A stretch of 64,000 nt of DNA from Anaerolineales bacterium. Lineage in GTDB: Bacteria; Chloroflexota; Anaerolineae; Anaerolineales; Villigracilaceae. Made by a program: the position numbers and the translations under genes. Each line of letters opens with the position of its first letter. The first letter of the stretch is position 1. Under the pieces are notes generated by a model. It had not been told where the DNA came from. It did no database searches and was given only the letters and a program-made list of their open reading frames with translations. Where the stretch lies: positions 62,001 to 126,000 of the forward strand of contig JAEURC010000069.1 of the NCBI GenBank assembly GCA_016789025.1. The letters run 5' to 3'. Shown here in pieces: positions 44,475 to 64,000 of this stretch.

Positions 44475-46862
44475 ATGCCTAAAAGCAAGGGTTCGGATCA
44501 ACTTCCCCTCGCCAAAGAAGAAATCCTCAACGATTACCGTCTTGCCTACCAAAGCAGGCAGGCTTCGCTTATTGGGCGGCGCGAGGTGTTGAGCGGCAAG
44601 GCAAAGTTCGGCATTTTTGGCGACGGCAAGGAACTTGTCAACATTGCGATCGGGCGCGCGTTCCGCAAAGGCGATTGGCGCTCGGGATATTATCGTGACC
44701 AGACCTGGATGTTCATGTTGAACGTGATGAGCATCCAGGAATTTTTTGCCCAGACGTATGCACACGCCGATGTGAATCACGAATCCAACACGGGGGGACG
44801 TTCGATGAACGCGCATTTTGCGAACCGCTACATCAACCCCGACGGCACATGGACGAATCAAACTGAATCATATAACACCGCGGCAGATGTTTCGCCGACG
44901 GGCACACAGATGCCGCGCGCTGTCGGTCTTGCATACGCTTCGGTGGTGTATCGCGGACTTGAAGTCAATAATCAATTCACGCGCAACGGAAACGAAGTTG
45001 CGTTCGTGAGCATCGGCAACGCGTCTTCATCTGAGGGAATGTTTTGGGAGGCGGTCAATGCCATCGGTGTTTTGCAAGCGCCCGCGGTCATCGTTGTGTA
45101 TGACGACGGTTATGGCATCTCCGTCCCGAACAAATTTCAGATGGTCAAGGAAAACATGTATGAAATTTTGCGTGGCTTCCAGCGCGACCTCGATTGCAAC
45201 AACGGCTACGATCTCTACCAAGTGCGCGGATGGGATTACCCCGCGTTGCTCGAAACGTTTTCCAAAGCGGCGGGCAACGCGCGCGAACATCACGTCCCCG
45301 CGTTGGTGCATGTCAACGAGATCACTCAGCCGCAGGGACACAGCACAAGCGGTTCACACGAGCGATACAAGACTCCCGAGCGACTCAAGTTCGAGGAAGA
45401 CTTTGACTGCGTCCGCAAATTGCGCGAGTGGATCATAGACAACCGCGTCGCTTCGGACCTCGAACTGGTCGCCCTCGAACAAGCGGACTACGAAGCTGTG
45501 GAGGGAATCCGCAAACTGGCGTGGGACGCGTATTTGAATCCGATCCTTGAGGAGCGCGGTCACGTGATGGATATGCTCGACGAGATCGCGGGGAGTTCGA
45601 GTCACGCGTCAGAGTTGAGTCAGCTCAAAGAACGGCTGGCAAACATCCCGTCGGTGGCGAGGCGTGATGTCCATGGCGCGGCGCATGAGGCGTTGCGAAT
45701 CCTGCGCGACGAAGCGAATCCGTCGAAGCAGGTTTTAATCCAATGGAAAAATGAACAGGATGCGATCAACGTGGAGCGGTACGGCTCGCATTTGTACGGC
45801 GGCAGGGCGGCGGTGAAAGAGGTGAAGCCTGAGTATTCCGCGTCGTCGCCGACGATGATGGGATTTGAAGTGATCAACGCGGCGTTCGATTCGATTTTGG
45901 GGCGCGACTCGCGTGTGGTTGCGTTTGGTGAAGATGTCGGTTTTCTCGGCGATGTGAATCAGGGTTTCAAAGGGATGCAGGAAAAATATGGCGTACTGCG
46001 CGTGACCGATACAGGCATCCGCGAGGCGACGATCATGGGGCAGGCGATCGGCATGGCAATGCGCGGACTGCGACCGATCTGTGAAATTCAATATCTCGAT
46101 TACATTTTGTACGCGTTGCAAGTGATGTCTGACGACCTTGCGAATTTACATTGGCGCACCGCAGGCGGGCAAGCCGCGCCTGTGATCGTGCGGACGCGCG
46201 GTCATCGCTTGGAGGGCATCTGGCATTCGGGTTCGTTGATGGCGGGGTTGATCCATCTCGTGCGCGGAATGAATGTGCTGGTGCCGCGTGATATGACTCG
46301 CGCCGCTGGTTTTTATAACACGTTGTTGAAATCGGATGAGCCTGCTGTTGTCGTTGAAGTGTTGAACGGTTATCGCGTGAAGGAACGCCTGCCCAATAAC
46401 ATCGGCGAGTTCACTGTTCCGCTTGGCGTGCCTGAAGTGATTCGTGAAGGGAGCGATGTTACCCTCGTCACCTATGGCGCATGTTGCCGCATCGCGCTTG
46501 ACACGGCGGAGAAATTGTCGAAGGTTGGCATTGAAGTTGAAGTGATTGATGTGCAATCGCTGTTGCCGTTCGATATTCACGGAAAGATCGTTGACTCTTT
46601 GAAGAAGACCAATCGCGTTTTGTTTTTGGATGAAGATGTGCCAGGCGGAACGTCCGCGTATATGATGCAGGAAGTGATTGAGAAGCAGGGCGGGTATTTC
46701 CATTTAGATTCGCCTGCGAGAACTTTATCAGGCAAGGCGCATCGTCCCGCGTATGGTTCAGACGGCGATTATTGGTCGAAGCCGAATGCGGAGACGATCT
46801 TTGATGCTGTTTATGAGATGATGAGTGAGGTTGATCCTGAGAAGTATCCAGTGATTAAGTGA
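44475..46862 (+). CDS. 2-oxoacid dehydrogenase E1 component, fused alpha and beta subunits
   Basis: 795 residues; the alpha part is at about 1-395 and the beta part at about 450-795. Thiamine-diphosphate region is atypical: GNASSSEGMFWEAVN (about 178-192) and VVYDDGYGIS (about 210-219) where many E1-alpha proteins have GDG...NN. The beta part has VAFGEDVGFLGDVNQGFKG (about 476-494) and RVLFLDEDVPGGTSAYM. It decarboxylates a 2-oxo acid (pyruvate or branched-chain) and acylates the E2 lipoyl group. AGGAGA precedes the ATG. E2 follows at 47449 with a four-helix-bundle gene in between; E3 is not in the window. Confidence 0.9.
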   Translation: MPKSKGSDQLPLAKEEILNDYRLAYQSRQASLIGRREVLSGKAKFGIFGDGKELVNIAIGRAFRKGDWRSGYYRDQTWMFMLNVMSIQEFFAQTYAHADVNHESNTGGRSMNAHFANRYINPDGTWTNQTESYNTAADVSPTGTQMPRAVGLAYASVVYRGLEVNNQFTRNGNEVAFVSIGNASSSEGMFWEAVNAIGVLQAPAVIVVYDDGYGISVPNKFQMVKENMYEILRGFQRDLDCNNGYDLYQVRGWDYPALLETFSKAAGNAREHHVPALVHVNEITQPQGHSTSGSHERYKTPERLKFEEDFDCVRKLREWIIDNRVASDLELVALEQADYEAVEGIRKLAWDAYLNPILEERGHVMDMLDEIAGSSSHASELSQLKERLANIPSVARRDVHGAAHEALRILRDEANPSKQVLIQWKNEQDAINVERYGSHLYGGRAAVKEVKPEYSASSPTMMGFEVINAAFDSILGRDSRVVAFGEDVGFLGDVNQGFKGMQEKYGVLRVTDTGIREATIMGQAIGMAMRGLRPICEIQYLDYILYALQVMSDDLANLHWRTAGGQAAPVIVRTRGHRLEGIWHSGSLMAGLIHLVRGMNVLVPRDMTRAAGFYNTLLKSDEPAVVVEVLNGYRVKERLPNNIGEFTVPLGVPEVIREGSDVTLVTYGACCRIALDTAEKLSKVGIEVEVIDVQSLLPFDIHGKIVDSLKKTNRVLFLDEDVPGGTSAYMMQEVIEKQGGYFHLDSPARTLSGKAHRPAYGSDGDYWSKPNAETIFDAVYEMMSEVDPEKYPVIK

Positions 46863-46870
46863 ACAGTTAT

Positions 46871-46944
46871 CAGTGAGCAGTGAGCAGTGAGCAGTGAGCA
46901 GTAAGCAGTAAACAGTGAGCAGTAAGCAGTAAACAGTGAGCAGT
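46871..46944. repeat. heptamer array CAGTGAG x10
   Basis: Ten contiguous 7-nt units (CAGTGAG, CAGTAAG or CAGTAAA) plus CAGT. A 21-nt higher-order unit (CAGTGAG CAGTAAG CAGTAAA) occurs twice. It lies 8 nt after the E1 stop, and inverted units occur on the other side of the next gene (47409-47440). Confidence 0.95.
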
Positions 46945-46957
46945 ATTGGAGGTTGAG

Positions 46958-61949: not shown

Positions 61950-63440
61950 CTATGAGCGCCAATGTGGCATAGAGAAGTCATTTCTATGAACTAGTTTTAA
62001 GAATTCGGGGACAACTTCGGGGTCGAATAATTTTCCGGTTTGTTCTTTGATGTATTCGATGGCTTTCTGCTTTGTCCATGCATTCCGATACGGGCGCTCG
62101 GAGGTCAGGGCGTCGTATACATCGGCAATCGAAAACACTCGGGCTGAAAATGGAATTTGCTCGCCCTTGAGATTGTCCGGGTAGCCGGTGCCATCCCATC
62201 GTTCATGATGCCAGTGTGGAATATCGAGAGCAGGGGATAAATAGCTGATCGGGGTTAGTAATTCTACGGCAACGGCGGGATGTTTGCGCATAATGTTCCA
62301 CTCATCTTCTGTGAGCGGACCGGGTTTGAGGAGAATGTCATCAGGAACGGCGACCTTGCCAATATCATGGAGGATGGCCCCACGACGAATATGGATCAAC
62401 TTCTCCTTTGCCACACCCAAAGCAAGAGCAAGTTGCACCGTCATATCTGCTACTCGGCGGGTGCGTCCTTCAGTTTCCCGATCCCGAAAGTCCAAGGTGC
62501 GCAACCAGCCTTCGATGGTCGAATCGTATGCCAAACCCAATTCCGCATTGGATTTTTGCAGGTTTTCGAACAAAATGGCATTGTCGATGGCTATGGCTCC
62601 CCTCCCTGCAAGAATGTCGAGAAATTCAAGCCACGTTGCGTCAGGGTTTAGAATCGATGAATGAAATACCTCCAGCACACCGAGAATGCGTCCCTTTGTG
62701 ATAAGTGGCAAGCCCATGTAGGAGACGAATTTTTCACCTTGTAGATATGAGGGCATGTCGCCGCCCTGCGCGTTCCCGGCGATGTTCGGGATGTGGATAC
62801 GTTTTCTTTCCAATGCTACTTGTCCTGCGTATCCAGTCCCGAGTTTTAGAAAGACTGATGGGTGAGTGCGCGCGCGGAATCCTCTCGATGCCGCTAGAGT
62901 AAGTAGGTTGGTTTCGGGATTCATCAGTAGGAGGGCGGAAGCATTCGCAGGCAAGAGGGCGTTTGTCTGTTCCAGCAGGAGGGGGAGGAGCAGGTTCAAG
63001 TCGAGGTTGGAAGCGATGGCGAGATCAAGGCTTCGCAATCCGGTCATCCGCTGCAACTGTTGTTGCATTCTCAATTCAGATTGTTTGTATTTTGTTATAT
63101 CTCTCGAGAACAAGATCTGTTGAGAGGGGGAAAGGCAGGTTAATCGCCCGTCGAACCAAAATTTCTGGCCATCGAAGGTGGTTAGTGAATACTCAAATGG
63201 AAGAATATGCCCGCTTTGATAAAACTCCTCAAGCCCGCCTGGATATTTGCTGATGGGAAGCAGTTCGCCAATTCGCTGGTAGTGAAATTCCCCTGAAAAA
63301 TTTTCAGCTAGGTGAGGGGCGGTCAGCTTGTAATCTAAGATATTCCCGCGAGCGTCTAATACTACAACCAGATCGGCGGAGGATTTGAGGATCGATTCAA
63401 GCAGGGATTCTGCCGGGCGTGCTGTCAATTGATTGTCCAT
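61950..63440 (-). CDS. PAS-GAF-HD-GYP protein (putative cyclic di-GMP phosphodiesterase)
   Basis: 496 residues. An N-terminal PAS-like sensor (about 15-120), a GAF domain (about 145-300), then an HD-GYP domain: HD pair in ILHDIGKVAVPDDILLKPG (about 350-368), HHERWDGTGYPDNLKGEQIP (about 413-432) containing the GYP motif, and VFSIADVYDALTSERPYR. Such enzymes hydrolyse cyclic di-GMP or another cyclic dinucleotide. No membrane segment. It lies downstream of the two small genes at the right edge with an apparent hairpin between. Confidence 0.9.
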   Translation of the reverse strand: MDNQLTARPAESLLESILKSSADLVVVLDARGNILDYKLTAPHLAENFSGEFHYQRIGELLPISKYPGGLEEFYQSGHILPFEYSLTTFDGQKFWFDGRLTCLSPSQQILFSRDITKYKQSELRMQQQLQRMTGLRSLDLAIASNLDLNLLLPLLLEQTNALLPANASALLLMNPETNLLTLAASRGFRARTHPSVFLKLGTGYAGQVALERKRIHIPNIAGNAQGGDMPSYLQGEKFVSYMGLPLITKGRILGVLEVFHSSILNPDATWLEFLDILAGRGAIAIDNAILFENLQKSNAELGLAYDSTIEGWLRTLDFRDRETEGRTRRVADMTVQLALALGVAKEKLIHIRRGAILHDIGKVAVPDDILLKPGPLTEDEWNIMRKHPAVAVELLTPISYLSPALDIPHWHHERWDGTGYPDNLKGEQIPFSARVFSIADVYDALTSERPYRNAWTKQKAIEYIKEQTGKLFDPEVVPEFLKLVHRNDFSMPHWRS

Positions 63441-63539: not shown

Positions 63540-63818
63540 TTAGACACCTTGCAGTGCCTGGTTTACCTGTTGGGCAAAATCAGCCAGATCTTCAGCCCGT
63601 ATCGATTTGATGATGGATACTTCTCGATCGGACAGGGCAAAGGGTTGACCCAAGTATCCGTTCGCGAGCGCTTCTTCCGGGGTTTTGAGGAGTGTTTCGC
63701 GGAATTGCCCGCTAACTACAGCTGCGGCAAATAAGCGATGGAGTCCTCCGCGTTTGGCGGGTTGCTGGCTATAGCCCATGGATGGTTTTTTGTAGGTGTC
63801 AAAGGTGAGCAATGCCAT
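63540..63818 (-). CDS. small protein resembling the leader part of Nif11/NHLP-type peptide precursors
   Basis: 92 residues. A basic, aromatic N-terminus (MALLTFDTYKKPSMGYSQQP), then a helical domain HRLFAAAVVSGQFRETLLKT, PEEALANGYLG (about 47-57) and LSDREVSIIKSIRAEDLADF (about 62-81). The FRxxLLxxPExALxxGY...LxxxExxxIxxIxAxxLxxFA order is what I recall from Os1348/Franean1_4349-type and Nif11-related leader regions, but no core peptide follows: the protein stops at QALQGV. TAGGAG lies 7 nt before the ATG. It is 28 nt downstream of the repeat-peptide gene. Assignment is by pattern only. Confidence 0.55.
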   Translation of the reverse strand: MALLTFDTYKKPSMGYSQQPAKRGGLHRLFAAAVVSGQFRETLLKTPEEALANGYLGQPFALSDREVSIIKSIRAEDLADFAQQVNQALQGV

Positions 63819-63846: not shown

Positions 63847-63969
63847 TTACCGGCCGCCAGTGCAACCATCGGCAGGGGATCGGCGCCCACCAGTGCAACC
63901 ATCGGCAGGAGATCGGCGCCCTCCGGTGCAACCATCGGCAGGTGTATGCAGAGAGAATTTATTGTTCAT
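63847..63969 (-). CDS. 40-residue peptide with three PADGCTGGRRS repeats (putative multi-core modified-peptide precursor)
   Basis: Leftward ATG 63969, after GAGG 9 nt upstream, to TAA at 63847. The product is MNNKFSLHT followed by PADGCTGGRRS, PADGCTGGRRS and PADGCTGGR. DNA repeat unit is 33 nt (11 codons). The five variable positions among copies (Thr, Gly, Gly, Arg and Ser codons) are all third-base synonymous in this frame, whereas the alternative leftward frame would change amino acids. Each repeat carries one Cys, one Thr, one Asp, a GG and an RR/R, fitting repeated cores with protease sites. It has no Nif11-like leader of its own. No named family is recognised. The region upstream is outside the window. 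Confidence 0.75.
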   Translation of the reverse strand: MNNKFSLHTPADGCTGGRRSPADGCTGGRRSPADGCTGGR

Positions 63970-64000
63970 GGGATATTTCCTCTTTCTTTCAAATTTTTCC

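Follow-up and report, generated by a model that had tools for sequence, protein, structure and literature searches.

The repeat peptide gene

We examined a 64,000-nucleotide stretch of DNA (the window), which spans positions 62001–126000 of contig C37 in genome G000, so that contig coordinates equal window positions plus 62000. An open reading frame on the minus strand at 63847–63969 has an ATG start, 40 codons and a stop, and translates as MNNKFSLHTPADGCTGGRRSPADGCTGGRRSPADGCTGGR. Its ribosome-binding site, AAGAGG, is read from the sequence at 63979–63984 (minus strand) and is likewise present before the homologous genes; both frame and ribosome site are as the original prediction described them. 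Three 11-residue repeats had also been reported. Two are full copies of PADGCTGGRRS (63910–63942 and 63877–63909, minus strand), and the third (63850–63876, minus strand) has nine residues, PADGCTGGR, lacking the final RS and running directly into the stop codon. Positions 63857–63942 form the top-scoring tandem repeat of the window (period 33, score 151).

The five nucleotide positions said to vary between the copies were listed correctly, and each is the third base of its codon. This pattern extends to six related repeat genes, in which third positions make up 30 of the 31 columns that vary between copies (binomial p ~1e-13 with columns treated as independent; for the G018 gene only the three inner copies with an identical peptide were taken). 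Between the orthologues of G000 and G019, dS is 0.45 and dN 0.012, and pairwise dN/dS among the single-core peptides described below is 0.03–0.30. Copies and orthologues are under strong purifying selection, which bears out what had been proposed from the synonymous differences within this one gene. Within most genes the copies are identical in protein sequence while the core differs between species, meaning that the copies change together. The frame is real and looks translated.

The peptide family matched no family in Pfam or NCBIfam, no published description of it was found, and an Rfam search of the peptide region gave nothing. No secretion signal was found in the repeat peptide, which has no membrane helix.

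The surrounding gene cassette

Since the contig extends to 140,982, the neighbourhood beyond the window end could be read as well. The order on the minus strand at this locus is regulator, repeat peptide, NHLP-clan protein and HD-GYP protein. The regulator, an AfsR-like STAND/TPR/BTAD protein of 1066 aa, lies beyond the window end at C37:126063–129263 (minus strand). It has TPR repeats, AAA/STAND-like ATPase matches and a BTAD domain (PF03704, 1.6e-15); no Pfam match for an OmpR-type DNA-binding domain was found beside the BTAD, and residues ~840–930 resemble one by eye.

The gene after the peptide (63540–63818, minus strand) encodes a protein of 92 aa, Os1348-like and of the NHLP clan, that has no core peptide. 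It matches NF038399 with an E-value of 2.6e-7 and 30.6 bits, which is below the curated cut-off of 40, and PF14407 with an E-value of 4.3e-5. NF038399 is also matched by 49 of 50 homologues of this protein, with E-values up to 0.001. Against Os1348 itself (6lk7) the sequence E-value is 0.95, and the weak structure model (pLDDT 71) gave no Foldseek match. The last cassette gene encodes a PAS-GAF-HD-GYP protein (61950–63440, minus strand; GAF and HD_5 matches), which by its domains is a probable c-di-GMP phosphodiesterase.

Upstream of the regulator are ordinary genes, for an inositol monophosphatase, a response regulator, an arginase family protein, a 7TM-PAS-GGDEF protein, an amidohydrolase and parts of an oligopeptide permease. 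The radical SAM, YcaO, ATP-grasp, lanthipeptide or transport/protease genes thought worth looking for past position 64000 did not appear: no radical SAM, YcaO, LanM, ATP-grasp or peptidase-transporter gene was found in the cassette and the eight upstream genes (neighbours within ~10–15 kb). PADLOC, run on four cassette proteins, returned no defence match. The oligopeptide-type permease and binding-protein genes lie 6–11 kb upstream of the regulator on the same strand (L002, 11736–16969), and could be an importer, but catabolic genes lie between them and the regulator.

Relatives and distribution

A search with the NHLP protein of 152 genomes of the family found 89 places in 83 genomes, and the peptide lies within 1.6 kb of the match at 81 of these. 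Among the other eight, three carry a diverged peptide and a contig end interrupts one. The single-core peptide profile, run alone on raw six-frame DNA, matches 73 of the 152 genomes, and an NHLP match is near 90 of 94 peptide places, repeat forms included; the two independent six-frame searches thus agree on the pairing. Weak peptide matches a few kb from a cassette (E > 0.002) are noise, because the real peptide at those places is the membrane form. Across 400 genomes of the phylum the peptide is all but restricted to the order, and a second family contains diverged members.

In each locus read from the window's genus, the peptide gene sits between the regulator and the NHLP gene, and orthologues in this same position carry one, three or five cores. 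G019 has three copies of PADGCTGGRRS, G024 five of PADASTTGRRS (no Cys), G011 three of PSDGGVGGRRS, G018 five units around PSDGGSSTRRS and G022 three of MPADGGGGGRRR, while G016 has the single core TPSDGGGGGH. At seven other loci of the genus the peptide has 46–47 aa, with a membrane helix and one core at the C-terminus, for example MKNTFAHLQLLVAKIDRRYIQFAYFAFILAGLVLTKAPSDGGGGPF. An orthologous frame is therefore present in other genomes in both single- and multi-core form, as homologue searches had been expected to reveal if the gene were real.

A scan of named genomes gave 54 loci, mostly in Anaerolineales MAGs. Most have a peptide of the form MKNKLxLLxxSxxKINRQHIQLxFVxxSLAMLVLGxGAPxDGGGxGR, followed by DUF5317, NHLP and HD-GYP genes, and all 50 loci where the sequence leaves space for a regulator have one upstream. 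The general cassette is a STAND/TPR/BTAD regulator, the peptide, often DUF5317, the Os1348/NHLP-clan protein and the PAS-GAF-HD-GYP protein, with the HD-GYP homologue downstream of the NHLP gene in most loci. It is a previously undescribed cassette that is widely conserved in Anaerolineales (Chloroflexota), and the evidence for it is DNA from MAGs.

More distant regulator-peptide cassettes were seen in five genomes (L221–L225 in G074, G058, G009, G096 and G112), with peptides ending in GAPE-type cores and regulators ~30–34% identical to that of the window. Because four of these genomes also hold a first cassette, the regulator-peptide pairs seem to be a paralogous family.

DUF5317

The DUF5317 cassette gene matches PF17248 (2.9e-30). 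GxGAP, or a one-residue variant, stands at the helix end in 29 of 29 peptides with a recognised DUF5317 gene, and L135, read by eye, is a 30th such case; the motif is missing from all 13 peptides without a DUF5317 gene. This match may represent only one or two evolutionary events, because the loci are related. In DUF5317 cassettes the next gene begins at the stop codon of the peptide. We infer from these sequences that DUF5317 may act on or with the membrane end of the peptide, for example in its release. The primary cassettes in the window's genus lack DUF5317, whose loss probably came before that of the helix. Its structure model is good (pLDDT 87.5), but no relative was found in the PDB, and no published description of DUF5317 was found.

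Two control genomes, those of Thermotoga maritima and Thermus composti, have DUF5317 as well. A density-dependent peptide effect has been reported for T. maritima.

Promoter

Beyond the window end, between the regulator and the peptide, we found a predicted two-box operator (C37:126014–126039, minus strand) and a -10-like element, TATCAT (C37:126002–126007, minus strand). Two TTTGnAnCC boxes precede the peptide start in 39 of 42 loci, all at a period of 12 bp, and in 38 of those 39 a TAnnnT -10-like element is located exactly 10 bp beyond the boxes. Plain shuffles gave the pattern in 5 of 2100. The boxes vary between clades (GTAGCC, GCATCC, GAAGCC, GCAGTC, GTACCC); the two vary together in nearly all loci, as would be expected of sites for a bound protein.

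The window's genome has a single copy of the operator, even with three mismatches allowed. A blind scan for it matched 38 of the 152 genomes (reversed control 0), and the peptide was the first gene at ~27 of the 30 sites fetched. At two places (L189, G117:C3:156237; L194, G132:C6:762964) a perfect two-box operator and -10 have no peptide gene after them, and these are possibly further targets of the regulator. SARP promoters have two direct repeats in register with the -10, classically at a period of 11 bp (PMC10936776, PMC5930380); the boxes described here share the direct repeats and the register, but have a period of 12.

Evolution of the core number

The ancestral peptide is ~47 aa long, with one membrane helix and one C-terminal core, GAPxDGGGxGR. 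Its basic N-terminus suggests, by the positive-inside rule, that the helix is oriented N-in/C-out. In the regulator tree, the helix-less peptides covered group in a single clade (SH-aLRT 96), whose sister group has the helix and a single core. Read most simply, this tree means a single loss of the helix in the window's genus, followed by a three- to fivefold multiplication of the core with Arg-Arg linkers.

Whole genes have been duplicated too, giving two tandem genes at L111, three in G146 and five in G033. The five membrane-peptide genes in G033, Ca. Desulfolinea nitratireducens, are ~270 bp apart (L217, G033:C92, 1345–2572); four of the peptides end in GAPTIGGGGGG and one in GAPSVGGGGIG. 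Such a repeated rise in copy number, both within and of genes, would be expected if the product is released.

A candidate peptide signal

We propose, at about even odds (probability roughly 0.5), that the peptide is a multi-core form derived from a small precursor, the product of the first gene of a conserved Anaerolineales signalling cassette. A processed peptide ligand best fits the combination of a conserved C-terminal core, a rising core number, a STAND/TPR activator with an operator and a c-di-GMP enzyme. In such a system, the regulator would bind the operator and switch the operon on. A protease would free the C-terminal core, at the membrane for the ancestral form and at the Arg-Arg linkers for the repeat form, where cleavage would yield about [S]PADGCTGGR; an Arg-specific protease acting at these linkers could leave a terminal Arg, as is found at the end of most single-core peptides. 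The freed peptide would then bind as a ligand, most likely to the TPR region of the regulator, closing a feedback loop, and the HD-GYP protein would turn the signalling state into lower c-di-GMP.

A more specific version, which we hold tentatively and think somewhat less probable than its being wrong, posits a family of cell-cell signalling peptides in Chloroflexota, unrelated to RRNPP, whose pheromone precursor is membrane-anchored or multi-core and has the STAND/TPR/BTAD activator as both receptor and autoregulator. In this version the system would also be linked with c-di-GMP, and the NHLP-clan protein would be a partner whose function is new. Against the signalling proposal, no co-evolving region emerged when the divergence of core and regulator was compared window by window (partial r -0.16 to 0.18; one core in the comparison, that of L120, was mis-cut). 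The missing secretion signal of the helix-less form, the spacing of the boxes by 12 rather than 11 bp and the hint of RiPP chemistry in the NHLP partner count against it too. Tandem pheromone copies are documented in the Rap-Phr systems, which have TPR receptors (PMC11343458). Our literature searches found neither a peptide signalling system nor a BTAD-peptide system in Chloroflexota.

RRNPP systems likewise have a TPR transcription regulator adjoining a short precursor (10–100 aa) with a C-terminal core, and in some members the cores are multiplied in tandem (PMC11343458, PMC10075063). They differ in being from Bacillota and in having receptors of 250–500 aa, whereas the receptor candidate here has 1066 aa with STAND and BTAD; in addition, the helix-less form lacks a Sec signal, and the receptor role is a prediction from sequence.

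The strongest rival, which we consider unlikely, is that the peptide stays in the cell as an AfsS-like effector, a small regulator switched on by a SARP-like protein. In Streptomyces, the large SARP AfsR, with STAND/NOD and TPR regions, activates the small gene afsS via a two-box direct repeat (PMC10936776), and AfsS has 63 aa with three 12-residue repeats (PMC2267785). The window's cassette likewise sets a large STAND/NOD, TPR and BTAD regulator next to a small gene that it is expected to activate, with a two-box direct repeat before the -10 and a product of about three short repeats (AfsS is compared by description), and the helix-less repeat form lacks an export signal. However, the regulator here has a reversed domain order, with the BTAD at the C-terminus, its boxes are 12 bp apart rather than 11, and the cassette adds NHLP, DUF5317 and HD-GYP genes. 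The ancestral product is a membrane peptide whose single core is predicted to face outward, and a released product fits better with the duplication of whole genes, which reaches five copies.

The original prediction saw a multi-core modified precursor. Multiple cores and selection at the peptide level hold up, but modification finds no support: the Cys-Thr-Gly-Gly taken as its sign gives way to repeats without Cys in the sister genes, such as that of G024, some sister genes have no Thr or Ser in the core, and only P-x-D and small residues are kept. With Cys and Thr not conserved and no modifying enzyme near, the RiPP reading is unsupported; our verdict is only partial because the next gene encodes a distant member of the Os1348/NHLP clan, which is known from RiPP precursors. 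As a RiPP or bacteriocin precursor, the gene would encode modified, exported antimicrobial cores, and the NHLP-clan protein would serve in trans as a leader or partner. The near 1:1 pairing with this protein, its weak matches to NF038399 and PF14407 and the multi-copy cores fit that idea, as does the effect that Os1348 itself has on antibiotic activity in Pseudomonas (PMC7726476), but this 92-aa neighbour contains no core, conserved modifiable residues are not plentiful in the separate peptide, the cassette has no maturation, modification or export genes, and HD-GYP and STAND proteins are signalling parts. We therefore judge it improbable.

It is less probable again that DUF5317 has the membrane peptide as a subunit or clamp, with the helix-less repeat forms being relics or having a new role. 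The association of GxGAP with DUF5317 speaks for this, but the peptide persists after loss of both DUF5317 and the helix, and its P-x-D core is then still conserved and has multiplied, which indicates an independent role for the core. A nascent chain that arrests translation to control the next gene would also be a small membrane peptide with a conserved C-terminus, and the abutting next gene in DUF5317 cassettes would suit it; we think this very improbable, given that the cassette peptides listed have no RAPP/RGPP/RAGP-like C-terminal motif (PMC12992588), that such a motif needs no three to five copies and that the next gene differs between clades. A non-coding tandem repeat or DNA element, to which the 33-bp array might point, is refuted by frame conservation, with the third-position pattern and low dN/dS recurring in five other repeat genes and the single-core family.

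Filamentous Chloroflexota shape flocs and granules in wastewater plants, and the cassette is a concrete, testable set of candidate receptor, promoter and peptide. If the signalling proposal is right, it offers STAND/TPR/BTAD regulators a possible ligand class and would give core-less Os1348/NHLP proteins and DUF5317 a job. The cassette also records a stepwise change from a single-core membrane precursor to a multi-core one.

Elsewhere in the window, at 46858–46945, ~12 tandem copies of a 7-bp unit (AGTGAGC/AGTAAAC-like) lie directly after a gene end, ahead of another apparent coding region.
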